Shown here one piece after another: positions 25,498 through 41,080 of a DNA stretch of 41,080 nucleotides. The translations under genes and the position numbers were made by a program. The stretch covers positions 1-41,080 of the forward strand of contig JAAXWS010000020.1 in the NCBI GenBank assembly GCA_013334865.1, in the 5' to 3' direction. Source of the stretch: Chlorobiaceae bacterium. Its GTDB lineage: Bacteria; Bacteroidota; Chlorobiia; Chlorobiales; Chlorobiaceae. The first letter of the stretch is position 1. The number at the start of each line of letters is the position of its first letter. The notes below the pieces were generated by a model that saw only the letters and a program-made list of their open reading frames with translations, was not told the DNA's origin and did not search any database.

Positions 25498-25619
25498 ATA
25501 TAACATTGGGGGAAAGTTAAAAACCTGCGTCGCTGAAGATGATAGCGTAATGTTTTTCGATCTTCGAACTGATCGATTCGCATTTCAGTCTGGCGGCGAT
25601 GCGAAAAGAGGTGGGTCAG

Positions 25620-27341
25620 ATGAGTACCAGATTTTCCTCCCCGATAGCCGTGACCGGCATATTCCTCCTGCTGTCGTCCGCGAACCTTCGCGCGGAGCCC
25701 GTGCCCGATGCAGGCAGCATCCTCAGGCAGCAGGTGCCGCAACGCCGGGAGCTTCCCGACATCCTCCCCGAGCATCCTGACGATAACGGGCAGGATGTTC
25801 AGGAGGATCCCGGCATGAAGCTCATGGTCAAAGGGTTCTCGTTTTCGGGGTTCGAGGGCGTCGTCGAGGAGTCGCAGCTCCAGGAGGTGGTAGCCCGGGC
25901 CATCGGGGAAAACCTCGGTTACCGGGATCTCCGGGAGCTGGCGGACAAGGTTTCGGCATACCTCAGGGAGAATGGCTGGTTCCTCTCCAAAGCATACCTG
26001 CCCCGGCAGGATGTGACCTCGGGTACGGTAGAGATCAGGATCGTCACCAGCAGGAGCGATGGCGGCGCAAGGATAAATCGTGAACAATCGGTACGTGTCC
26101 GCGATTGCGTCCTGCGCTCCATGACCGGAAAAGCCGTTGGCCCGGATAAGCCGATCAACGAACAGCTGCTCGAACGCTCCCTGCTGCATGTCAACGACCT
26201 TCCAGGCATCACGGCCAGGGCGGCCCTCGCCCCCGGCACGAAGCCCGGCAGCAGCCGCATCGACATCAACGTCGCCGAAGGCCCCCTGGTATCGGCAAGC
26301 GTATGGGGCGACAACTATGGCAACCGCTACACCGGAGCGTGGCGGGCCAACGGGATTGCCTCCGTCAACGACCCCTTCGGATACGCCGACCAGCTGACGC
26401 TCCTGGTCACCGGCTCCGAAAGGCTTGCACAGGGGAGGGTCGCGTACAGCTTCCCGATCTGCTACGGAGGGGTACGGGGAAACATCTCCTATACCGGCAT
26501 GCGTTACAAGCTCGGCGAGGAACTCGCCTCGAACAACTTCGAGGGCAGCAGCAACGGCGTCGACGCCGGTGTGAGCTTCGCGGCTTCGCGCGGACCGTCA
26601 TCGAACGTGAACCTCTCGGCCACCTACGGATACCGGGAGCTCAAGGACTCTGCCAGCGGCGCGCCGAACAACGACAAGCGGCTGGGAAGCCTCTCCCTCG
26701 CCGCCAACGGGGAGCGCTACGACCGCTTCTCCGGTGGCGGGCTCACCACCTGGAACATCGGGCTCACCATGGGGAACTTCCACGGGTCCGGAGAGGTCTC
26801 GTCGGCCACGGCAGCCGCGAACTGCACGGAAGGGGAGTTCAGCCGACTCAACCTCGGCCTCGCCCGCCTGCAGCGCATAACTGGCCCGGTATCGGCAAGC
26901 CTTTCGTGGACGGCGCAGTTCACGCAGCAGAACCTCGATTCAAGCGAGAAATTCTCCCTCGGCGGCCATTCCGGCGTCAGGGCATATCCGGTCGGCGAGG
27001 CGATGGGGGACCATGGCCACCTGCTCAACGCCTCGCTCCGTTACGCGCTCCCGTTACCCGCCGGATGGGGTGCCTGCCAGCTCGAAGGGTTCTACGACGC
27101 GGGCCGGATCACACTGCAGGACAACCCGACCGCCAACCCGGGAACGGCCACCGGCCTCAACACCTACTGGCTGCAGGGCGCAGGCATCGGACTGAACCAT
27201 TCGCTCTCCGGGAGGCTGAGCATCAAGGCCTCCTGGGCGCACACCATCGGGGACAACCCCGGGCGGAGCGCCTTGGGCAACAACTCCGACGGCAGGGCGG
27301 ACACGAGCCGCTACTGGCTCCAGGCCCTCTTCACGTTCTGA
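25620..27341 (+). CDS. Two-partner secretion outer-membrane transporter (TpsB/FhaC/ShlB family)
   Basis: The protein is 573 residues from ATG 25620. A signal peptide ends near LRA-EPVP (residue 25), followed by a plug-helix-like segment (DAGSILRQQVPQ). Two POTRA-like domains follow (about 66-140 and 140-215; first with FSGFEGVV and YLRENGWFLSKAYLP). The rest is a 16-strand-type beta barrel with the conserved loop-6 segment SLGGHSGVRAYPVGEAMGD (normally VRGY) and a terminal Phe (ALFTF). It would export the adhesin encoded next. AGAGGTGG lies about 5 bases before ATG 25620, so this start is preferred over ATG 25599, which would add 7 residues before the signal peptide. Confidence 0.94.
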   Translation: MSTRFSSPIAVTGIFLLLSSANLRAEPVPDAGSILRQQVPQRRELPDILPEHPDDNGQDVQEDPGMKLMVKGFSFSGFEGVVEESQLQEVVARAIGENLGYRDLRELADKVSAYLRENGWFLSKAYLPRQDVTSGTVEIRIVTSRSDGGARINREQSVRVRDCVLRSMTGKAVGPDKPINEQLLERSLLHVNDLPGITARAALAPGTKPGSSRIDINVAEGPLVSASVWGDNYGNRYTGAWRANGIASVNDPFGYADQLTLLVTGSERLAQGRVAYSFPICYGGVRGNISYTGMRYKLGEELASNNFEGSSNGVDAGVSFAASRGPSSNVNLSATYGYRELKDSASGAPNNDKRLGSLSLAANGERYDRFSGGGLTTWNIGLTMGNFHGSGEVSSATAAANCTEGEFSRLNLGLARLQRITGPVSASLSWTAQFTQQNLDSSEKFSLGGHSGVRAYPVGEAMGDHGHLLNASLRYALPLPAGWGACQLEGFYDAGRITLQDNPTANPGTATGLNTYWLQGAGIGLNHSLSGRLSIKASWAHTIGDNPGRSALGNNSDGRADTSRYWLQALFTF

Positions 27342-27368: not shown

Positions 27369-30300
27369 ATGAACAGGATCCACAAGATCATCTGGTCCGA
27401 AATAAAGCAGAAATGGATCGTCGTTTCTGAAAAAGCGGGTGCGAAAGGGTGTCCCATCCTCAGCTTCGGCATCCTCAGCCTGGCGGCCATGATGGCCATG
27501 TCTCAGCCGGCTCAGGCCCTCGCGCCCGACGCCCTGCCGCAGGGCGGGCAGGTAACTGCCGGCAACGCAGCCATAACGGTGGACGGCAACCGGATGACGG
27601 TCGACCAGTCGAGCACGCAGATGATCGCCAACTGGCAGAGCTTCAACATCGGCGAACAGGCCGCAGTGAGGTTCAACCAGCCCGACGCGGCCTCCTCGGC
27701 CCTGAACCGCATCAACGGCCAGAACCCGACCGAGATCCTGGGTTCGCTCTCATCGAACGGTAGGGTCTTCCTGCTCAACCAGAACGGCATCGTCTTCGGA
27801 AAAACGGCCCGCGTCGACGTCGGCGGCCTCGTGGCGTCGAGCCTCTCGATGCTCGACAGCGACTTCCTCGCCGACAAATACCGATTGACCAACCCGGGCA
27901 ATGCCGGCAGTGTCGCCAACCTCGGGCAGATCACCGGAGCCCCCGGCAGCGTGGTCGCCCTGATCGCCCCTAAGGTCTCCAACGAAGGGAGCCTGAAGAC
28001 AAGCGGCGGCAGCGTCCTGCTCGCCGCAGGAGATACGGTTTCGCTCGACTTCACGGGCACGGGCCTCATCAGCTACATCGTCGAAAAAGGGGCCGTCGAC
28101 GCCCTGGTCTCGAACAGCGGACTCATCGTTGCCGACGGGGGAATGGCGGTCATGACCGCCAGGGCCGCCGACGAGCTGAAATCGGCGGTTGCCAACAACA
28201 GCGGGGTGGTCGAGGCAAGCAGCCTTGTCGGGAAAGGAGGCCGGATCATCCTCGAGGCGGACCATGTCACGCTGGCCACGGGCAGCAAACTCGACGCCAG
28301 CGGCGCGACCGGTGGCGGCGAGGTCCTCGTTGGCGGCGACTGGCAGGGAAGTGGCACGATGCGCCAGGCCATCACGGTAGACATGGAAAACGGGGCGAAG
28401 ATCGACGCTTCCGCAACCAGACAGGGCGATGGGGGAAAGGTTGTGCTGTGGGCTGACGTGCATAACCCGGATTCGGCTGTCACGGTCGATGGCGAACTCC
28501 TGGCAAAGGGAGGCTACGAAGGTGGCGACGGCGGCAATATCGAGACGTCGGGCGCCTCGGTCGATATCGGCCAGAATGCCATATTCGACACCCTGGCCAT
28601 CAATGGCAGCACCGGCCAGTGGCTGATTGATCCGTACGATTATGTCATCGGTACGACCCAGGCGGCAACCATAGCCACGGGTCTGAAGACGACCAACGTC
28701 TCGATCTCGACCTCCTCCAGCGATACGGCCTACGGCTCCAGCGGGAATAGCTCCAACACCGGCAACATTACGCTCAGTGCACCGATCTGGCTTGGCAGTA
28801 TTGCCGTAGGAAACGCTGGCAGCGGCTACAGCTCAACTCCCACGGTAACTTTCACCGGTGGCGGCGGCAGCGGCGCGACGGCAACCGCGATGGTATCCGG
28901 CGGGTTGGTGACGGACATCGTCGTCACCTCTGCAGGTTCGGGATACACCAGCGCGCCCACCATCAGCATCTCCGGAGGTTCAGGGACCGGAGCGACTGCG
29001 ACAGCCTCGGCACTCTCCCTTGGCAGTATTGCGGTAGGAACCGGCGGCAGCGGGTACAGCTACGCCCCGACCGTCACCATCAGCGGGGGCGGAGGCAGCG
29101 GCGCCACAGCAACCGCGACGGTTTCCGGAGGTGTGGTGACGGGCCTGACAATCACCTCCGCCGGTTCCGGATATACCTCCATGCCGACAATTTCCCTCTC
29201 CGGTGGCAACGGCTCCGGAGCTACGGCGACGGGTACGCTGAAGCTGTCAACCTTTCCGACGACGCTCTCCATGACGGCGGCAGGGAAGATCGCCATCAAC
29301 AAGAACATAACGGTCAACGCACTGAGCCTCAGCGGATCAGGCGCCGGCAACAGCCTCGGCACCGGAATTGAACTCGCTTCAGTGATCACGACGACGGGTG
29401 CTCAGAGCTACACCGGGAACGTGGCTATCGCAGGCAACACCGTTCTCAACAGCACAAGCGGGGGAGTCACGTTCAACAACACCCTGAACTCCCTGGCTGG
29501 CGCACAGCTGCTGACCGGCAGCAGTACATGGCTTATTCCGACCAATGTCACCACCGTCCAGGCCTGGGCGATCGGCGCCGGCGGCGGTGGCGGCGGCGCC
29601 AGTGGTGCGGCTGGTGGCGGCGGTGGCGGCGGTGTCGCCTACTACCAGTATTCGACTACGCCGGGACAGACGATTTCGTATTCGACTGGCACTGCCGGCG
29701 CTGGCGGAGCCGGCGGTTATAATGGTTCTACGGGTGGCACCACAACCGTGAGCTACAACGGGGTGACCCTTTACGCATACGGTGGGCAGGGCGGCGTCGC
29801 CGGCGGTTCAGGAGGCAGTGGCGGCACGGCGACCGGCGGCACGACCAACGTTACCGGCGGTTCCGGAGGTGCGGGAAGCAGCGGCGATACCGGAAGCGGC
29901 GGCGGCGGTGCCATCGGAGGGGGAAGCGGTTCAAGCTATAATAGTTCCAGTGGCGGTGCGGGAGGTACCAGTGCCGATGTCGCCGGGTTGAGCAGCGCAT
30001 TGACCGTCCTGGGGTACAGTCTGGGGGCTGGCGGTGCGGCGACTGGTCCAGGAACCAACCTGTATACCAATGCCGGTACACCGAACAACGCGGCAAATTT
30101 TGGTTCGGGCGGCAGCGGCATCGGCTACTGGGGCGGAACCGGCGGTACCGGGCTCTATGGCGGCGGCGGCGGCGGCGCTGCCAACGAGGGCGGTAGTGTT
30201 GCCGGCGGCGCAGGCGGCGCAGGCGTAGCCGTCGTGATGTACGGCGTCGGTTCAAGTTCCCTCACCATCAACGCCGGTTCCGGTAATGTGGGTTTCTCCG

Positions 30301-33300
30301 GCAAGGTGGGCAACATTGCCAACCTGTCCAGCCTGAATGTCAACACTACCGGCAACATCAGCTTCAGCGATACCGTCAAGGCGACGGCGGTGACGGCAAG
30401 CGCCGGCGGCAGCACGACTTTCGGCAGCACGGTTGATACCTCAGGCGCCATAAACCTCACCAGCGGCTCCCTTACGGTCAACAACGTCATTAACGCAACG
30501 AGCGGCAACATCAGCGTCAAGACCGATACCCTGAACTTCGGAAGCAGCGGACGCCTGAAATCCACCGGCGCGCTCGCGGTTGCTCCCAAAACTATTGCCA
30601 ACACCATCAGCGTTGCAGGGGCAAGCGGCACCTTCGCCCTGCCGGCCAGCTATTTTTCGACAAACTTTGTCGATGGCTTCTCGGGCATAACGATTGGCCG
30701 TGCCGATGGCAGCGGCAAGATCACCGTCGGGGCCCTTACGGTATATGACAACCTCACCTTGCTCAACACAACGGACGGGATTGAAATTACCGGTGCGCTC
30801 AATGCACAGTCGAACAGCCTCACCCTTAACAGTAGCGGAGTCAAGACCATCGGCAGCACGGTCAGCGCCAGCAGCCTCAACTCGAACGCCGGGGGCGGCA
30901 CCACCGTCGGTGCAGCGGTAACCACCTCCGGTGCCCAGGCCTACGGCGATAACGTGACACTTGGCGCGAACGTCACCTTCACCAGTTCATCTTCTGCGGT
31001 CAATTTCGGGAGCACGCTGACCGGCGGGACTCATGCATTGACCGTCAGCGGCGCCGCCGGTTTCGGCGGAGCGGTGACCGGCCTGACGACACTGAGCGTG
31101 AGCGGTGCGACCACGCTCAATGGCAGCGGCATCAGCAGCAGTGGGGCGCAGACCTATTCCGGTGCCGTAACGCTCGGAGCCGACACCACCCTCGACGGAA
31201 GTTCTATTGCACCCGGGAGCTCTTTGGGACTTGGCAGTTACGGGTTGACGCTGGTGAGCAGCGGCAACAATACGATTTCCGGCATCATCTCCGGCAGCGG
31301 ATCACTGACCAAGACGGGCACGGGCACGCTCACGCTTTCGGGTGTGAACACCTATACCGGAGCCACCACGGTAAGCGCCGGTACGCTGGCTGTGGGCAAC
31401 GCGGCTGGCCTTGGCGGCACGCAGGGAGGCACCACCGTCGCCAGCGGAGCGACACTTGACCTGCAGAGCGCGGCGGTAGGCGCCGAAGCGATCACGCTGA
31501 ACGGCGGCACCCTCAAGACCAGCACCGGCAACAGCAGCCTTTCCGGCGCGTTGACTCTTGGCGCGGCAAGCACCTTCGACAGTTCTGGTACGGCGCTGAC
31601 CCTGACGGGCGGCATCACCAATGCGGGATACCTGGCGACCTTCACCGGATCCGGCAGCACCACGGTGAGCACGACGGCCATAACCGGCACCGGAGGCCTG
31701 ACCAAGAGCGGCACCGGCACGCTCACACTTTCCGCATCCAACACCTACACAGGAGCCACCACGGTGAACGCCGGTACGTTGGCCGTGGGCAACGCGGCTG
31801 GCCTTGGCAGCACGGCAAGCGGCACCACCGTCGCCAGCGGAGCGACGCTCGACCTGCAGAACGCGGGGGTAGGCGCCGAGGCGATCACGCTCAACGGCGG
31901 CACGCTCAAGACCAGCAGCGGCAGCAGCAGCCTTTCCGGCGCGTTGACTCTTGGCGCGGCAAGCACCTTCGACAGTTCTGGTACGGCGCTGACCCTGACG
32001 GGCGGCATCACCAATGCGGGATACCTGGCGACCTTCACCGGATCCGGCAGCACCACGGTGAGCACGACGGCGATAGCCGGCACCGGAGGCCTCACCAAGA
32101 GCGGCACCGGCACGCTCACGCTCTCAGCTGCAAATACCTACTCCGGTGCGACGACGATCAGCGCCGGCACGGTAAAGGCAGGCGACGCAGCTGCATTCGG
32201 TACCGGATCGGCGACGGTTGCTATCGGCGGGGCACTCGACCTCAACGGCCAGTCCATTGCCACCAACCTGACGATCAGCGGTACGGGTGTCAGCAGTGCC
32301 GGAGCCTTGACCAACAGCAGCGCGACGGCAGCATCGGAAAGCGGCAGCGTGGCGCTGGCCGCAGCCACGTCGATCGGTGGCAGCGGAAGCGTCACCCTGA
32401 GCGGTGTGGTCAGCGGCGCAAATGCGCTGACCAAGGCAGGTACGGGCACACTGACCCTGTCAGGGACCAATACGTTCACTGGCGGCAGCACGGTCAGTGC
32501 CGGTACGCTCACGGCAGGCAGCGCCGCGGCGCTGGGCACCGGTGCGGCGACCGTCAGCGCAGGCGGAGCGCTGGACCTCAACGGCCAGTCGATTTCCAAC
32601 AACCTGACGATCAGCGGAAGCGGTGTCGGCAACGGTGGCGCGCTGGTCAACAGCAACACCTCGACAGGGGCAACATCGGGCGGCACCTTGGGCCTTGCCG
32701 CAGCAGCATCTATCGGAGGTGCCGGCAACCTCACGATTGCGGGACAGGTAACTACCGGCAGCAGCAACGGTAATGGTCTGGTTTTTGTCGGCGCCGGCGC
32801 CAAGTCGCTGTCGAACAGCACCAATGCCATCGGCATCGTCGCCTCCGGCAGCAGCATCGGCGCGTTGAGCCTGACCGACGCTTCCGCACTGACGGTAAGC
32901 GCGTTCACGCTCAATTCCGTCACCTACAGCGGAATTTCCAGCAACAATGCTGCCGTAGGGCTGACCTGCACCGTCGCCAGCGGCACGAACCTGCTGACCC
33001 TCAACAACGCCATCAGTACCGGAAGCGGGGACCTGACCCTGACGGCGAACACCTTCAATGCGACAGCCAGTTCTTCCGGTACCGGCGTGCTGACGATCCA
33101 GCCCTACACGTCGGGGACCACCATCGGCATCAACAGCGGATCAGGCATCCTGAGCCTGACCAGTACAAGGCTCGGATATTTCACTGGTTCCAGCTGGTCG
33201 CGCATTGCAATCGGCAACAGTGCAGCCGGCGCGATCGAAGTCGGTGGTACCTCTGCTTTCAACAATTCGCCCCTGGAGCTCATCAGCGGCGGTTACATCA

Positions 33301-36300
33301 AGATAAACGCATCATCGTCGCTCACGACCAGCAAAACCAATGGCTACCTTGCACTGGAGGCTGGAGGCAACTTCATCAACAGCTCGGGGTCGACTGCGCT
33401 GCAAGCCACCGGCTCGGGTGGCAGCTGGATGGTGTACAGCACTACGCCGGCCTCAAACACCTTCGGCAGCCTCAGCAGCGGCCAGCAGGCGATCTGGGGC
33501 AAAACAGCCGCCAGCCTTTCTTCAAGTGCGCTGAAGTCGGGCTACGCGGGCAACCGCTATGTGTTCAGCGCGCCGGCCACGGTAGTGGTCACCGCCAGCG
33601 ACAAGAGCAAAACCTATGGCGATACCACTACGTTCGGCTCCGGCGACATTGCCTATGGCGGCCTGCCGATGAGCAGCGCAGTCACCTACGGGAACCTCTA
33701 TAGCGACTACAGCACGTCGGATGTGCTGGACACGCTGCCAACGGCAGGTTCGAGCGGAGCAACAGCCAGCGCCGGCGTCGTGCCCGGCGGGTACGCCATC
33801 ATTCCCAGCGGCGCTGTCGCGAAAACCGGATTCAGCGTGAGCTACGTCAACGGGACGCTCACGGTCAACCCCAAGCCGGTGGCGCTCAGCGGCACCCGTG
33901 TCTATGACGGAACCACGAGCTTGTCAGGTTCAATCTACTCGTCCACCAACCTGGTCACCGGCGATGCGCTGACCGTCACGGGCAGCGCCACGGCAAGCAG
34001 CGCCAACGTTGGCACCTACACGTCGACCAGCGGACTGGTGCTCTCCAACAGCAACTACACGCTCTCGGGCGGCAGCGTTTCAGCCACGATCACCAAGAAA
34101 ACGCTCAATCTCAGCGGCCTGAACCTGGCCGACCGCACCTATGACGGAAACACCACCGCAACCACGGTGCAGAGCTACGGCACGCTATCCGGCAAGGTCG
34201 GCAGCGATACAGTCAGCATCGCCACGAGCGGTTATACCGTTTCCACATTCACCAGCCAGAACGTAGGAACATACAGCGTAGCCGTGACCGGACTGTCGCT
34301 TACCGGTGCCCAGGCTGGCAACTACCAACTCTCCAGCACCAGCGCGACCGACAGTTCGGTCAGCATCACCCCGGCGACCCTGACGGTGAGCGGCCTGAAC
34401 CTGGCCGACCGCACCTATAACGGAAACACCACCGCAACCACGGTGCAGAGCTACGGCACGCTATCCGGCAAGGTCGGCAGCGATGACGTCAGCATTGCCA
34501 CGAGTGGTTACAGTGTTTCTGCATTCTCCAGCAAGAATGTCGGAACCTACAGCATAAGCGCGAGCGGGTTTTCACTCACCGGTGACCAAGCAGGCAACTA
34601 CCGGCTTTCCAGCACCACGCTGACCGACAGCAGCGTCTCCATCACGCCCAAGGCGCTGACCATCAGCGACATCACGGCAAGTGACAAGACCTACGACGGC
34701 ACGGCATTGGCGACGGTGAGCACCGCAGGCGTCACTTCCTCAGTGCTGCAGAACGGCGGACTGGTCGCTGGGGATGCTGTGACGGTTTCGGCTACGGGTA
34801 CCTTTCGCAATTCCGGGAACACCGCGGATGACAAAAACGCAGGTACGGGTAAGACGGTGGCACTGACGAGCACCTACGGCGGCGCGGACGTCGGCAACTA
34901 CACCATCACCGGGCAGGGGACCACGACGGCGACCATCTCGCCTAAGGCATTGAGTATCAGCGGCATCACGGCTGCCAGCAAGACCTACGACGGCACGACA
35001 GCTTCCACGTTGAACACCGCGGGCGCCTTGTACGGAGGACTGGTCGCTGGAGATGCGGTGAGCATCTCGTCGGTGACGGGCACGTTCAGCAGCAAGCTCG
35101 CCGGCACAGGTAAGACCGTAACGCTCAGCGATAGCAGTTACAGTGGTGCAGACGTCAACAACTACACCATCACGGATCAGGCAAGCACGACGGCGAGCAT
35201 CACGCCTGCGGCACTGACTGTTACCGCAAGTGCCGTCACCAAGACCTACGATGGCACGACCGGAACCGGCGGCGCGACGCCAACGGTTGGCACTCTGGTC
35301 GGGTCCGATAGTGTCAATGCGGCCGGCTCAGAGGACTTCATTGACAAGAATGCCGGTACCGGCAAGACGGTGAACGCCAGCGGCGTGACGATCAAGGACT
35401 CAGGAGGTACTGATGTTTCAGGGAGCTACACCATCAGCTATGTGCCCGACACAACCAGTACGATCAATCCTAAGTCGTTAACCATCAGCGGCATCACGGC
35501 AAGTGACAAGACCTACGACGGCACGGCATCGGCGACGGTGAGCACCGCAGGCGTCACTTCCTCAGTGCTGCAGAACGGCGGACTGGTCGCTGGGGATGCG
35601 GTGACGGTTTCTGCTACGGGTACCTTCCGCAATTCCGATAACACTGCAGATGACAATAACGCGGGTACGGATAAGACGGTGGCACTGATCAGCACCTACG
35701 GCGGCGCAGACGTCGGCAACTACACCATCACCGGGCAGGGAACCACGACGGCAAAGATCAACAAGGCGCCATTGACCGTCACGGCCAACGACGACGCCAA
35801 GTTCTATGGTCAGTCTGATGCTTCAGGTTATGCAGGTGTGAGATACAGCGGGTTCGTCAATGGAGAATCGGCCACGACAACAGGTGTGTTGACGTCCAAT
35901 CCAACTATTTCGGCTGACAGAACCAGTACGCTTAACATTAGTGGTGGTCAATCTGGTCGTTTGGGCAACAACGGTTATGAAACTGCCGGTTCATATGCCC
36001 AGGCGCTTGTTCCGTCCGGTGCTGTAGCCGGCAACTACACATTCACTTACGTCAAAGGCACCTTTACCATCGTTCCCGCGGGAAAACTGCTTGTACGAGT
36101 TAACAATCTGGAAACTATCTATGGAAGTCCGGCTACCTACACTGTGGCAAGCGCCGAGTATCTGAGCGGGTCGACAGTGACGAATGCCACCTATACTCCA
36201 ACTGGCAATAGTATCAGTGTCGGAGATGCAACCTTCACCCTGGCACCAACTTATTCGAACACAGATATCAGCACGAGCGGTTATCTCAAGGTAGGAAGTT

Positions 36301-39300
36301 ATCAGCTAGGTTCGACAGGTCTCAGCAAACCAACTAATAATTTCAGTGACCTGGTGATCATTGGCGCGCAGCAGATTACCCCCAAGGCGCTGAGCATCAG
36401 CGGCATCACGGCTGACAGCAAGACCTATGACGGCACGGCATTGGCGACGGTGAATACCACAAACGTGACCAAGGCCGGGTTGGTAACGGTGAATGGAACG
36501 GCTGATGTCGTTACTGTTTCGGCTACGGGCACGTTCGGCAACAAGAATGTGGCTTTCAGCAACAACGCTGTAACAACCAAGACCGTAACGCTGACGAGCA
36601 CCTACGGCGGCGCGGACGTCGGCAACTACACCATCACCGGGCAGGGAACCACGACGGCGACCATCTCGCCTAAGGCATTGAGTATCAGCGGCATCACGGC
36701 TGCCAGCAAGACCTACGACGGCACGACAGCTTCCACGTTGAACACCGCGGGCGCCTTGTACGGAGGACTGGTCGCTGGAGATGCGGTGAGCATCTCGTCG
36801 GTGACGGGCACGTTCAGCAGCAAGCTCGCCGGCACAGGTAAGACCGTAACGCTCAGCGATAGCAGTTACAGTGGTGCAGACGTCAACAACTACACCATCA
36901 CGGATCAGGCAAGCACGACGGCGAGCATCACGCCTGCGGCACTGACTGTTACCGCAAGTGCCGTCACCAAGACCTACGATGGCACGACCGGAACCGGCGG
37001 CGCGACGCCAACGGTTGGCACTCTGGTCGGGTCCGATAGTGTCAATGCGGCCGGCTCAGAGGACTTCATTGACAAGAATGCCGGTACCGGCAAGACGGTG
37101 AACGCCAGCGGCGTGACGATCAAGGACTCAGGAGGTACTGATGTTTCAGGGAGCTACAGCATCAGCTATGTGCCCGACACAACCAGTACGATCAATCCTA
37201 AGTCGTTAACCATCAGCGGCATCACGGCTTCAGACAAGACCTATGACGGCACGACTGCCGCCACGGTCATCACGACTGGCGTGACAAAGACCGGGTTGGT
37301 GACGAACGACAATGTGACGGTTTCGGCTACGGGCACGTTCGGCAACAAGAATGTGGCTTTTAGCAACAACGCGGCGGTAACAGCCAAGACCGTGACGCTG
37401 ACGAGCACCTACGGCGGCGCGGACGTCGGCAACTACACCATCACCGGGCAGAACAGTACGACGGCAACGATTTCGGCCAAAGCTCTCACGATCAGCGGCA
37501 TCAGTACTTCAGATAAGGTCTATGACGGTTCCACAAGTGCCACTGTTGGAGTAAGCGAAAGCGGTGTGATTGCTGGTGACACGGTGACCGTCAGCGCCAA
37601 CGGCACGTTCCGCAACGCGGCAAACAATGCCGACGACAAGAACGTTGCTTACGACATCAGTAGCCAGGTCACCAGCAAGCCTGTGAGTGTGACGGGCATT
37701 GCGCTCAGTGGCACAGATGCCGCGAACTACAGCATTGCCAGTACATACAGCGGCGCCACGGCGACAATCACGCCACGCCCCCTGTCGGTGACCTACAGCG
37801 GCGTGAACAAGGTCTATGACGGCACTACAGTGGCAAGCGTGACGACGGCCGACGACCGCATCAGTGGCAATACCTTCACCATCAACCGGACCGCCGCTTT
37901 CGATGACACCGGAAGCACGGGCAGGAACGTCGGCGTCGGCAAGACGGTGAACGTGACCGGTGTCTCCCTGAGCAATGGCAGCGGTCAGACGGATGCAGGC
38001 AACTACAGCGTACCGGCCTCCGGCACTACGGTTGCCGACATCACCCGGGCACCATTGACCATCACGGCGTCAACCGACAACACCAAGACCTACGACGGTA
38101 CGGTCAGTTCCTCTGGCACGCCGACGATCACCAGCGGATCTATCATGACCGGCGATTCGATCGGTGCCTTGACCCAAGCCTTCGATTCGAAGAATGCCAG
38201 CACATCCGGCGGCCGCATCCTGAGCGTTGGGCCTTATACCATCTCCGACGGCAACAGCGGCAACAACTATGATGTGACGCTCGCAACGGCAAGCGGCACG
38301 ATCAGCAAGGCGACGCTGAAGGTTACGGCAAATAACGTCAGCAGGACCTACGATGGTACCGAATACAGCGGAGGTAACGGGGTGACCTATGGCATTTACT
38401 CTAATGGATCGACAACCCAGACATTTGTCGGTGGTGAAGACTCTGGTAGCCTGGCTGGCACGCTCTCCTATTCCGGCACAAGCCAGGGGGCGGTCAACGC
38501 AGGCACCTACGTCATCACGCCACAGGGGCTTACCAGCAACAACTACACCCTGAGTTTCGTTAACGGTCAGCTGTCGATCGGAGGCGCTATCCTGATCTCC
38601 GGCAGCCTCACCGGCACCACGAGCAAGGTCTATGACGGTACCGACGTAGCGACACTGAGCGCCAGCAATTACCTGCTCACGGGTTGGGTCGGCAGTGACG
38701 GCGCGACGATCACCAGGACCACAGGCATCTTTGCAAGCAGTGCGGCAGGTGATAACAAGACGGTTACGGTTAACCTCTCCAGCAGCGATTTCAGCGCCAC
38801 CGGCAGCACCATCCTGCTCAACTATACGCTGCCTACCTCGGTTACCGGGAATATCGGCAGCATCACCCCCAAGGCGCTCACCATGAGCGGCCTGACGGTG
38901 CCGTCCAGCAAGACGTACGACGGCACGACGGCAGCGGTCGTGTCCGGTTCCGGAGCACTCCAGAACGCCGTTGCGGTCGGCAGCGGGACGGCTATCGACG
39001 GACAGCCCTACAGCGGCGACACGGTTGCCATTACCGGTACGGCCTCAGGTACCTATAACAGCAAGGATGTCGCAAATGCGAACACCGTGACCTTCAGCGG
39101 CCTCGGCCTGAACAACAGCAACTACAGCCTGGTCATCGAGAGCCCGGTTTCTGCCACGATCACCCAGAAGCCCCTAGACGTCAGCGGAAGCAGCGCTTCA
39201 GGACGCTCCTATGACGGCACCGCAGCCGCAGACATCACCGTAGGTGCCCTGTCAGGACTGGTCGGCAGTGAAACGGTGACGGCGACGGCGACCGGCACCT

Positions 39301-41080
39301 TCGACAGCAAGAATGCCGGCAGCCGCACCGCGACGGCGGTTTATGCGCTGGCCGATGGCGTCGGTGGCGGACTGGCGGCCAATTACAGCCTCGCGAATAC
39401 GACCGGCCTTGCGGCCACAATAAGCCAGAAAGCATTGAGCATCACCGGAAGCAGTGCCAGCGGAAAGGAGTATGACGGCAATACATCGGCAGTGATAACT
39501 CCCGGCAGCCTGGCCGGGTTCATCGGCAGCGAAACGGTGACGGCGACGGCGGCCGGTACATTCGACAGCAAGGCTGCCGGCAACCGCACCGCGACGGCGG
39601 TCTATGCGCTGGCCAATGGCAGTGGAGGCGGGCTGGCGGCGAACTACAGCCTCGCGAATACGACCGGCCTTTCCGCCACGATAAGCAAAAAGGATCTGGC
39701 CATTTCGGGGATTACTGCCGGCGACAAGGAGTACGACGGCACGGCACAGGCCTCGGTGAACACCACAGGTGCATTGTTCGACGGGCTGGTCAATGGGGAT
39801 GCGGTGACGGTTTCGGCAACGGGAGCCTTCCGCAATGCGGGCAACACGGCGGATGACAAGAGCGTGGTCCTGGACAACAACAACGCCGTGGTCAGCAAGA
39901 CGGTGCAGCTGGCGAGCAGCTACAGCGGCGCAGATGTCGATAACTACACCATCACCGGGCAGGCCACCACGACGGCGAAGATCACGAAAAAGTCGCTAAC
40001 GGTATCGGGAATCACCGTCGCAAACAGGACCTACAACGGCAATACAGTCGCCACACCCGATACCGCCGGAGCGAAGTATGTGGGAATCATCAACAGTGAC
40101 GACCTGACGGTGTCGGCTACGGGACTTTTCGCTGACAAGAATGTCGGCGAGGGCAAGACGGTGACGCTGGCCAGCACCTACAGCGGAACCGATGTCGGAA
40201 ACTACACCATCACCGGCCAATCGACCACCACAGCCGATATCACCCGCCTCTCTTCGGTCGCCTGGACGGGTGGGTCAACAGGTGACTGGTTCAATCCTGC
40301 AAACTGGGCGGGGGGCGCCGTGCCTGATCTCGCCAACGTTGCCAATGTCTCGATTCCGTCCAACGTGACGGTGTCGTTCGACAATGCCCGATTTTCGGGT
40401 CAGGCTTCGGGAGGTACGGTCCAGATCGACGGCCTGGGAACGGCGGACGGCGGCTTGAGTATCCAGGCGGGCTCGCTGCAGGTCGGTTCGGGTGGCGTGA
40501 CATTGGGGACGCTGTCGCAAACCGGAGGCACGCTGGCCAGCAGCGGCTCGGTGGTGGTGGGCGCCTTCACCCAGAGTGGCGGCACTGCCCGGACATCGGG
40601 CGGGTTCACCACCGGTTCAGGCTTTGCCCAAACCGGTTCGGGCACGTTGTCGGTGGGGGGCGCGACGACCATTGGCTCGACGGCTGGCAACGTCACCCTG
40701 GGCAACCTGACTACGGGTACGCTGGCGATCGAGAGCGAGGGCGGCAGCGTGGGCCAGGCGTCAGGCACGAGCATCAGCAGCGGCAGCACCATAGTGACGG
40801 CGCGTAACGGCAATGCCGCAGCTGACATCACCCTGGGCAACGCCGGCAACGACCTCGGCGGGACGGTGAGCACGGATGGTGCCAGCGTGTTGCTGCGAGA
40901 CGACACCGGCGGCGTGACGCTGGGCACGACGACGGCTACCGGCGATCTCTCGGTGGAGAGCAACGGTGGCGGCGTGGGCCAGGCGTCAGGCACGAGCATC
41001 AGCAGCGGCAGCACCACGGTGACGGCCCGTAACGGAAACAGCGCCGCAGACATCACGCTGGGCAACGAAGGCAACGACCT
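27369..41080 (+). CDS. Giant two-partner secretion adhesin (TpsA/FhaB-like), 3' end outside window
   Basis: The frame is open from ATG 27369 to the window edge, about 4,570 codons with no stop or frameshift found on a codon-by-codon reading. Residues 1-24 are an extended signal peptide (MNRIHKIIWSEIKQKW, then VVSEKAG), followed by a hydrophobic core and AQA cut near residue 50. The TPS domain has NRI (N113) and NQNGI (N137; usual NPNGI), then WLIDP (W418). Further on are two GSGY-type repeats (475-624), a Gly-rich tail-fibre-like domain (about 719-958), FSGITIGRADGSG (~1105), autotransporter-type PATR repeats (~1310-1720), about 21 YDG modules with MBG modules (~2065-4295), and WTGG...NWAGG with short repeats to the end. 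It begins 27 bp after the transporter gene, with no clear Shine-Dalgarno. It is probably a surface filament for adhesion. Confidence 0.95.
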   Translation, partial: MNRIHKIIWSEIKQKWIVVSEKAGAKGCPILSFGILSLAAMMAMSQPAQALAPDALPQGGQVTAGNAAITVDGNRMTVDQSSTQMIANWQSFNIGEQAAVRFNQPDAASSALNRINGQNPTEILGSLSSNGRVFLLNQNGIVFGKTARVDVGGLVASSLSMLDSDFLADKYRLTNPGNAGSVANLGQITGAPGSVVALIAPKVSNEGSLKTSGGSVLLAAGDTVSLDFTGTGLISYIVEKGAVDALVSNSGLIVADGGMAVMTARAADELKSAVANNSGVVEASSLVGKGGRIILEADHVTLATGSKLDASGATGGGEVLVGGDWQGSGTMRQAITVDMENGAKIDASATRQGDGGKVVLWADVHNPDSAVTVDGELLAKGGYEGGDGGNIETSGASVDIGQNAIFDTLAINGSTGQWLIDPYDYVIGTTQAATIATGLKTTNVSISTSSSDTAYGSSGNSSNTGNITLSAPIWLGSIAVGNAGSGYSSTPTVTFTGGGGSGATATAMVSGGLVTDIVVTSAGSGYTSAPTISISGGSGTGATATASALSLGSIAVGTGGSGYSYAPTVTISGGGGSGATATATVSGGVVTGLTITSAGSGYTSMPTISLSGGNGSGATATGTLKLSTFPTTLSMTAAGKIAINKNITVNALSLSGSGAGNSLGTGIELASVITTTGAQSYTGNVAIAGNTVLNSTSGGVTFNNTLNSLAGAQLLTGSSTWLIPTNVTTVQAWAIGAGGGGGGASGAAGGGGGGGVAYYQYSTTPGQTISYSTGTAGAGGAGGYNGSTGGTTTVSYNGVTLYAYGGQGGVAGGSGGSGGTATGGTTNVTGGSGGAGSSGDTGSGGGGAIGGGSGSSYNSSSGGAGGTSADVAGLSSALTVLGYSLGAGGAATGPGTNLYTNAGTPNNAANFGSGGSGIGYWGGTGGTGLYGGGGGGAANEGGSVAGGAGGAGVAVVMYGVGSSSLTINAGSGNVGFSGKVGNIANLSSLNVNTTGNISFSDTVKATAVTASAGGSTTFGSTVDTSGAINLTSGSLTVNNVINATSGNISVKTDTLNFGSSGRLKSTGALAVAPKTIANTISVAGASGTFALPASYFSTNFVDGFSGITIGRADGSGKITVGALTVYDNLTLLNTTDGIEITGALNAQSNSLTLNSSGVKTIGSTVSASSLNSNAGGGTTVGAAVTTSGAQAYGDNVTLGANVTFTSSSSAVNFGSTLTGGTHALTVSGAAGFGGAVTGLTTLSVSGATTLNGSGISSSGAQTYSGAVTLGADTTLDGSSIAPGSSLGLGSYGLTLVSSGNNTISGIISGSGSLTKTGTGTLTLSGVNTYTGATTVSAGTLAVGNAAGLGGTQGGTTVASGATLDLQSAAVGAEAITLNGGTLKTSTGNSSLSGALTLGAASTFDSSGTALTLTGGITNAGYLATFTGSGSTTVSTTAITGTGGLTKSGTGTLTLSASNTYTGATTVNAGTLAVGNAAGLGSTASGTTVASGATLDLQNAGVGAEAITLNGGTLKTSSGSSSLSGALTLGAASTFDSSGTALTLTGGITNAGYLATFTGSGSTTVSTTAIAGTGGLTKSGTGTLTLSAANTYSGATTISAGTVKAGDAAAFGTGSATVAIGGALDLNGQSIATNLTISGTGVSSAGALTNSSATAASESGSVALAAATSIGGSGSVTLSGVVSGANALTKAGTGTLTLSGTNTFTGGSTVSAGTLTAGSAAALGTGAATVSAGGALDLNGQSISNNLTISGSGVGNGGALVNSNTSTGATSGGTLGLAAAASIGGAGNLTIAGQVTTGSSNGNGLVFVGAGAKSLSNSTNAIGIVASGSSIGALSLTDASALTVSAFTLNSVTYSGISSNNAAVGLTCTVASGTNLLTLNNAISTGSGDLTLTANTFNATASSSGTGVLTIQPYTSGTTIGINSGSGILSLTSTRLGYFTGSSWSRIAIGNSAAGAIEVGGTSAFNNSPLELISGGYIKINASSSLTTSKTNGYLALEAGGNFINSSGSTALQATGSGGSWMVYSTTPASNTFGSLSSGQQAIWGKTAASLSSSALKSGYAGNRYVFSAPATVVVTASDKSKTYGDTTTFGSGDIAYGGLPMSSAVTYGNLYSDYSTSDVLDTLPTAGSSGATASAGVVPGGYAIIPSGAVAKTGFSVSYVNGTLTVNPKPVALSGTRVYDGTTSLSGSIYSSTNLVTGDALTVTGSATASSANVGTYTSTSGLVLSNSNYTLSGGSVSATITKKTLNLSGLNLADRTYDGNTTATTVQSYGTLSGKVGSDTVSIATSGYTVSTFTSQNVGTYSVAVTGLSLTGAQAGNYQLSSTSATDSSVSITPATLTVSGLNLADRTYNGNTTATTVQSYGTLSGKVGSDDVSIATSGYSVSAFSSKNVGTYSISASGFSLTGDQAGNYRLSSTTLTDSSVSITPKALTISDITASDKTYDGTALATVSTAGVTSSVLQNGGLVAGDAVTVSATGTFRNSGNTADDKNAGTGKTVALTSTYGGADVGNYTITGQGTTTATISPKALSISGITAASKTYDGTTASTLNTAGALYGGLVAGDAVSISSVTGTFSSKLAGTGKTVTLSDSSYSGADVNNYTITDQASTTASITPAALTVTASAVTKTYDGTTGTGGATPTVGTLVGSDSVNAAGSEDFIDKNAGTGKTVNASGVTIKDSGGTDVSGSYTISYVPDTTSTINPKSLTISGITASDKTYDGTASATVSTAGVTSSVLQNGGLVAGDAVTVSATGTFRNSDNTADDNNAGTDKTVALISTYGGADVGNYTITGQGTTTAKINKAPLTVTANDDAKFYGQSDASGYAGVRYSGFVNGESATTTGVLTSNPTISADRTSTLNISGGQSGRLGNNGYETAGSYAQALVPSGAVAGNYTFTYVKGTFTIVPAGKLLVRVNNLETIYGSPATYTVASAEYLSGSTVTNATYTPTGNSISVGDATFTLAPTYSNTDISTSGYLKVGSYQLGSTGLSKPTNNFSDLVIIGAQQITPKALSISGITADSKTYDGTALATVNTTNVTKAGLVTVNGTADVVTVSATGTFGNKNVAFSNNAVTTKTVTLTSTYGGADVGNYTITGQGTTTATISPKALSISGITAASKTYDGTTASTLNTAGALYGGLVAGDAVSISSVTGTFSSKLAGTGKTVTLSDSSYSGADVNNYTITDQASTTASITPAALTVTASAVTKTYDGTTGTGGATPTVGTLVGSDSVNAAGSEDFIDKNAGTGKTVNASGVTIKDSGGTDVSGSYSISYVPDTTSTINPKSLTISGITASDKTYDGTTAATVITTGVTKTGLVTNDNVTVSATGTFGNKNVAFSNNAAVTAKTVTLTSTYGGADVGNYTITGQNSTTATISAKALTISGISTSDKVYDGSTSATVGVSESGVIAGDTVTVSANGTFRNAANNADDKNVAYDISSQVTSKPVSVTGIALSGTDAANYSIASTYSGATATITPRPLSVTYSGVNKVYDGTTVASVTTADDRISGNTFTINRTAAFDDTGSTGRNVGVGKTVNVTGVSLSNGSGQTDAGNYSVPASGTTVADITRAPLTITASTDNTKTYDGTVSSSGTPTITSGSIMTGDSIGALTQAFDSKNASTSGGRILSVGPYTISDGNSGNNYDVTLATASGTISKATLKVTANNVSRTYDGTEYSGGNGVTYGIYSNGSTTQTFVGGEDSGSLAGTLSYSGTSQGAVNAGTYVITPQGLTSNNYTLSFVNGQLSIGGAILISGSLTGTTSKVYDGTDVATLSASNYLLTGWVGSDGATITRTTGIFASSAAGDNKTVTVNLSSSDFSATGSTILLNYTLPTSVTGNIGSITPKALTMSGLTVPSSKTYDGTTAAVVSGSGALQNAVAVGSGTAIDGQPYSGDTVAITGTASGTYNSKDVANANTVTFSGLGLNNSNYSLVIESPVSATITQKPLDVSGSSASGRSYDGTAAADITVGALSGLVGSETVTATATGTFDSKNAGSRTATAVYALADGVGGGLAANYSLANTTGLAATISQKALSITGSSASGKEYDGNTSAVITPGSLAGFIGSETVTATAAGTFDSKAAGNRTATAVYALANGSGGGLAANYSLANTTGLSATISKKDLAISGITAGDKEYDGTAQASVNTTGALFDGLVNGDAVTVSATGAFRNAGNTADDKSVVLDNNNAVVSKTVQLASSYSGADVDNYTITGQATTTAKITKKSLTVSGITVANRTYNGNTVATPDTAGAKYVGIINSDDLTVSATGLFADKNVGEGKTVTLASTYSGTDVGNYTITGQSTTTADITRLSSVAWTGGSTGDWFNPANWAGGAVPDLANVANVSIPSNVTVSFDNARFSGQASGGTVQIDGLGTADGGLSIQAGSLQVGSGGVTLGTLSQTGGTLASSGSVVVGAFTQSGGTARTSGGFTTGSGFAQTGSGTLSVGGATTIGSTAGNVTLGNLTTGTLAIESEGGSVGQASGTSISSGSTIVTARNGNAAADITLGNAGNDLGGTVSTDGASVLLRDDTGGVTLGTTTATGDLSVESNGGGVGQASGTSISSGSTTVTARNGNSAADITLGNEGND
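28794..29240 (+). repeat. 228-bp GSGY-type repeats in the adhesin
   Basis: Two in-frame units start at 28794 and 29022 (both beginning GSIAVG). Each holds two half-units of the form GSGY-x4-PTV/I-x3-GGxGxGATATA. The diverged DNA shows this is an older duplication than those in the YDG array. Confidence 0.85.
29523..30242 (+). other. Glycine-rich tail-fibre-like domain in the adhesin
   Basis: About 240 residues begin STWLIPTNVTTVQAWAIGAG and continue through poly-Gly segments, TTPGQTISYSTGTAGAGGAG, then GTTTVSYNGVTLYAYGGQGG and many GGxGG turns, ending in GGAGVAVVMYG. Start, PGQT segment and end follow the order of the glycine-rich domain common in phage tail fibres and some bacterial surface proteins, which forms a polyglycine-II-like sandwich in known fibre tips. 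It interrupts the usual adhesin beta-helix pattern. Confidence 0.7.
31352..32137 (+). repeat. 393-bp tandem PATR repeats in the adhesin
   Basis: Two copies are offset by exactly 393 bp (131 codons). The segment from about 31533 to 31679 reappears without visible change from about 31926 to 32072. Each begins with the passenger-associated repeat pattern GTGTLTLSGxNTYTGATTVxAGTLAVGNA. More diverged copies continue to about 32,530. Confidence 0.9.
34863..35500 (+). repeat. Copy 1 of a 638-bp near-identical duplication
   Basis: This segment reappears at 36591-37228, offset 1,728 bp (576 codons, in frame). By eye only two base changes were found, one near 34920 and one near 35439 (Thr to Ser). It spans about two and a half YDG modules. 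Confidence 0.9.
35501..35742 (+). repeat. Partial repeat of 34679-34920 (offset 822 bp)
   Basis: The segment from AAGTGACAAG onward matches 34679-34920 with a handful of changes. It is in frame (274 codons) and encodes one YDG module. Confidence 0.8.
36591..37228 (+). repeat. Copy 2 of a 638-bp near-identical duplication
   Basis: Partner of the segment at 34863-35500. Sequence on both sides of the copies differs, so the borders are sharp. A third partial copy of its first ~54 bp occurs at 37398. Confidence 0.9.
40740..41080 (+). repeat. 225-bp repeats near the end of the window
   Basis: GTGGGCCAGGCGTCAGG occurs at 40749 and 40974, a period of 225 bp (75 codons), with nearly the same sequence after it. 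Each unit encodes a segment like GQASGTSISSGST followed by ARNGN and DITLGN. The array continues past the window edge. Confidence 0.85.

Follow-up and report, generated by a model that had tools for sequence, protein, structure and literature searches.

We find by computation that the large adhesin of a two-partner-secretion (TPS) pair in a green sulfur bacterium carries, inserted in its beta-helical rod, a glycine-rich domain that is homologous to the Gly_rich_2 family and has the corresponding predicted fold. Both the domain family and the adhesin type are known already; what appears to be new, within the host phylum as surveyed here and the open-licence literature, is the insertion of the former in a TPS rod.

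The two-partner-secretion locus

The window, i.e. the whole stretch of 41,080 nucleotides analysed here, is a contig. The genome to which it belongs, 2.4 Mb in size, encodes the Fenna-Matthews-Olson (FMO) protein (PF02327, 2.4e-223), and the host is therefore a green sulfur bacterium. At the right end of the window lies the pair tpsB and tpsA, with tpsB upstream and a gap of 27 bases between the two genes (Table 1). The sequence-only reading had described a phage-fibre-like glycine-rich region within a TPS adhesin, and this setting is borne out: TpsB combines POTRA_2 with ShlB, while TpsA opens with ESPR and a TPS domain. The TPS domain and the adjacent POTRA/barrel protein confirm a two-partner secretion (type Vb) pair; the matches for the pair are PF05860 at 3e-34, PF13018, PF08479 and PF03865, along with adhes_NPXG, TIGR01901. 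For this pathway, it is established that TpsB exports the rod of TpsA, which then folds extracellularly. Beyond its N-terminus, TpsA consists of beta-helix repeats, PATR repeats, approximately 20 YDG and approximately 4 MBG_2 domains, and the gene breaks off within repeats at the contig end. The ESPR extended signal peptide (27369-27449) is found here in a host outside Pseudomonadota. In the same genome, tpsA has two paralogues at other loci (C21:48450 and C16:207001), and related TPS N-termini, including these two, occur in 56 of the 98 genomes of the order.

Table 1. Features of the TPS locus, in coordinates of the window
Feature	Coordinates	Strand	Basis or remark
TpsB outer-membrane transporter, POTRA_2 and ShlB/FhaC barrel	25599..27341	+	Pfam
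TpsA adhesin gene	27369..41078	+	at least 4570 aa, leaves contig end at 41078
GSGY-repeat module, residues 474-628	28788..29252	+	similar to phage virion structural/baseplate proteins
Left flank, beta-helix repeat TTTGAQSYTGNVAIAGNTVLNSTSGGVTFNNTLNSLA	29388..29498	+	joined-flank match
Gly_rich_2-type glycine-rich domain, TpsA residues 711-959	29499..30245	+	profile, fold model
Asn/Tyr-rich loop part, residues 855-920, NLYTNAGTPNNAANF...GIGY	29931..30128	+	alignment gap in relatives, low pLDDT
Right flank, same repeat continued, SSLTINAGSGNVGFSGKVGN...	30246..30479	+	joined-flank match

TpsA shares the TPS domain, ESPR, beta-helical rod and adjacent TpsB with adhesins of the FhaB/CdiA type, but differs from them in that its putative receptor region has the Gly_rich_2 fold. 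CdiA toxin-delivery proteins, in addition, possess a C-terminal toxin region and an immunity gene, whereas the present TpsA is readable only as far as position 41078. That TPS proteins can hold modular receptor-binding regions is established for CdiA (PMC5371414).

The glycine-rich domain and its homology

The glycine-rich region claimed at 29523-30242 is indeed present, with boundaries that we refine to 29499-30245 (249 residues), and the phage-fibre-like motifs attributed to it are there in frame, namely IPTNVTTVQAWAIGAGGGGGG, TTPGQT, YSTGTAGAGGAGG, poly-Gly turns and tyrosines. The domain is 36.5% glycine and has only three charged residues, and the glycine maximum of the entire TpsA falls within it. 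A profile search against glycine-rich domain families, as proposed in the sequence-only reading, returned Pfam Gly_rich_2 (PF21722), with a match spanning profile positions 3-225 of 226. In particular, the domain has the VP..VT.v..w..GAGGGGGG opening, the TPG(Q)T turn and the GGxGxxGxv closing strand of the family; what sets this copy apart is its location within a TPS beta-helix repeat and its extra long loop. The trimmed domain scores 29.2 bits against a cut-off of 24.3, and a 310-aa query scores 24.3 bits, exactly the cut-off. When the complete 4570-aa TpsA was scanned, Gly_rich_2 was not among the matches listed, so routine annotation could miss the domain.

With a segment so rich in glycine, and with the longer query only equalling the Pfam cut-off, one could argue that the stretch is low-complexity sequence and that the match reflects composition only. 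Composition was therefore controlled by shuffling. Namely, a profile that was built from five relatives and excludes the window sequence scores the domain at 42.0 bits, while the maxima reached by 1000 residue shuffles and 1000 block shuffles were -27.3 and -22.5, respectively, and none of the 2000 came within 60 bits of the real score. The match thus depends on residue order, beyond composition. Together with the end-to-end profile coverage, the confidently modelled sandwich strands and the fold matches described below, this makes an artefact of composition hardly credible, and we take shuffle control and fold search to have refuted it.

Other sequence searches were less productive. Our A4 profile recovers the domain in its own genome at 2.1e-19, a value that is not independent, as A4 contains the window's own row, and the first PDB match by sequence alone is the Pam3 fibre at a marginal E of 0.018. 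A tblastn search of the domain against phages gave no match, probably because low-complexity filtering masks it, and HMM searches were therefore used. No confirmed match came from a viral-contig scan with the single protein or from a genome-contig scan with alignment A2 (alignment A1 was without a conserved stretch), and a plasmid search gave none.

Predicted fold and structural relatives

The domain was modelled with AlphaFold2 (m997820559ac7) from an input that included 19 domains from uncultivated viral contigs, yielding a pLDDT of 79.6 and a pTM of 0.80. Confidence is high in the sandwich strands and the first glycine loops and low at residues ~840-925, with the pLDDT dropping under 50 over model residues 146-153 and the greater part of 185-211. 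In a second model, with ~55 flanking residues on each side, the same domain is kept between low-confidence beta-strand flanks. The predicted fold, in other words, is neither disordered nor a beta-helix, and it matches the glycine-rich domains of phage fibres, as had been anticipated; its sandwich and glycine-rich loops agree with those of solved Gly_rich_2 members. Polyglycine-II packing would follow from the fold match, with the central loops modelled at low confidence.

In a Foldseek search against the PDB, the best match was the cyanophage Pam3 fibre (1.7e-7, TM 0.59-0.60). Pam3 gp24 (PDB 7yfw, 7ypx) likewise has a TNF-like beta-sandwich continuing into glycine-rich loops, but gp24 is trimeric, makes up the tip of a fibre and comes with a helical shaft at its N-terminus and with a chaperone (PMC9608196), whereas the TpsA domain lies as a module inside a secreted adhesin. 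The glycine-rich tail-tip chains of mycobacteriophage Bxb1 (PDB 9d93) match at 3.3e-7 and differ as a component of a phage tail. The glycine-rich (TG) domain of the ALK/LTK ectodomains is a weaker match (from 1.0e-3) that shares the general sandwich and glycine-rich loops; it belongs to an animal receptor kinase, and its TM of only ~0.3 indicates an architectural analogy, not an established kinship. Viral models matched the fold in 254 cases at E<=0.001, and among the top matches many are named glycine-rich domain proteins of phages.

Insertion into the rod and the GSGY module

If the left and right flanks of the domain are joined, the resulting sequence matches uninterrupted TPS adhesin repeats in relatives, with 40-43% identity over ~100 residues to three copies in one of them (G070) and 36% identity in another (G014), so that the domain interrupts one coil-forming repeat. 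Approximately 80 residues upstream of it, a second module made of four GSGY-type repeats is inserted, and the TpsA homologue of a further relative (G068) aligns straight over this site without the module. The GSGY module matches families of phage baseplate, head-closure and virion-structural proteins, at best with 1.3e-30, as well as hundreds of viral contigs (496 of 600 candidate stretches). Among the phage proteins fetched, none had both the GSGY and the Gly_rich modules, and a genome-contig scan with the GSGY region yielded no more than one planctomycete protein and one short GSGY-repeat contig, neither of which resembles an adhesin in the parts read.

Distribution and ancestry

Across the 98 genomes of the order, this TpsA is the only adhesin with a Gly_rich_2 domain recognisable by the A4 profile. 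The other clear matches are proteins of 772 and 412 aa from two relatives, both short and resembling tail fibres or phage proteins, the 412-aa one being tail-fibre-like in its N-terminal sequence, and a 344-aa protein is a marginal match. Three loci in other genomes of the family encode probable tail or tail-fibre-like proteins with Gly_rich domains, namely L163 (G005:C7), L164 (G067:C105) and L165 (G053:C10), the domain being weak in the last; these proteins are a possible local donor pool. In the wider phylum, Gly_rich_2 occurs in 29 of 394 genomes and, unlike in TpsA, the loci read usually have it directly behind the signal peptide of large secreted proteins or in tail-fibre-like proteins, at their end; no TPS protein was recognised in the N-termini scanned among these loci.

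In a tree, the window's domain groups among phage and tail-fibre-like sequences with a support of 0.66-0.85, the domain being glycine-dominated, so that a recent phage origin is no more than a possibility. Since secreted proteins of Bacteroidota also have the domain and the tree is poorly resolved, the sequences lend an origin from phages weak support.

The TpsA homologue of G068 (L157, G068:C15) contains, close to the corresponding site, a different glycine-rich stretch (~250 residues), which may be a divergent second case. That said, it did not qualify as a second member, as 19 of 1000 block shuffles score equally high, nor as a Gly_rich_2 domain, with an hhalign E of 0.097 and no Pfam match.

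Proposed function

We infer that the glycine-rich domain probably projects laterally from the TPS filament as a head that binds a receptor or a glycan. TpsA would be exported intact via the adjacent TpsB and displayed on the surface, and the independently folding domain of phage-fibre type, spliced into one coil of the rod, would fold alongside it, its sandwich base holding the bundled poly-Gly loops with their tips outward. The lateral head would then contact a partner surface, be it a glycan, an outer-membrane protein, a neighbouring cell or matrix. The anatomy of the insertion is consistent with such a binding head. The glycine-rich domain of the Pam3 fibre has a conserved glycine-rich stem and a hypervariable tip, for which a role in receptor binding and host specificity has been proposed (PMC9608196). 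The TpsA domain possesses the stem motifs as well, plus an extended Asn/Tyr-containing loop region at residues 855-920, which is longer than in the phage relatives and mostly missing from viral relatives in the alignment. Judging from this comparison, the loop is a candidate for a variable binding tip and would provide the contact site.

Several points run contrary to this reading. Namely, the phage domains are parts of virions and work at trimeric fibre tips, whereas the TpsA domain sits in an adhesin next to TpsB, within a presumably single-chain rod, and any claim is thus that the two work alike. What is more, the middle of the domain (residues ~840-925) is modelled at low confidence, and glycine-rich segments could function as spacers or as part of a matrix. 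Passive modules do occur in large adhesins. In such a case, the Gly_rich_2-like fold would be a structural or elastic filament spacer with no specific ligand, and binding would reside in the YDG/MBG region or in the missing C-terminus; the many other modules of TpsA and the scarcity of charged residues in the domain speak for this. We nevertheless consider a spacer unlikely: unlike a repeated spacer, the domain is present once, is inserted sporadically and has a long divergent loop, and the relatives with solved structures either recognise receptors or are receptor ectodomains that bind ligands (PMC9608196). One can also imagine self-association, in which domains of adjacent filaments pack against each other and bring about filament bundling or cohesion of same-kind cells. 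Subunits do touch one another in the Pam3 fibre trimer (PMC9608196), and a link between large adhesins and cell-cell consortia has been drawn for green sulfur bacteria (PMC7762298, PMC4053972). However, the Pam3 glycine-rich domains are in loose contact, and trimerisation is driven by the helical domain (PMC9608196), which leaves self-association with a distinctly smaller chance than the spacer.

Taking the binding head one step further, green sulfur bacteria might splice phage virion modules, the Gly_rich_2 tip and the GSGY module separately, into coils of TPS rods, possibly from prophage tail genes of the same family, and so obtain partner-recognition filaments with switchable cell-cell specificity. 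We regard this broader scheme as rather doubtful, if somewhat less so than the spacer.

Significance

The variable recognition modules of phages include glycine-rich fibre domains, and the occurrence of one in a TPS rod suggests a recognition chemistry common to phages and bacterial adhesins. From the insertion it would also follow that a TPS rod can accommodate additional folded domains between its coils. Large adhesins have been proposed as a support for green sulfur bacterial consortia (PMC4053972, PMC7762298), although the adhesins named belong, at least in part, to other secretion types. Finally, the domain provides a defined fragment of 249 residues for testing what it is that a green sulfur bacterium attaches to.
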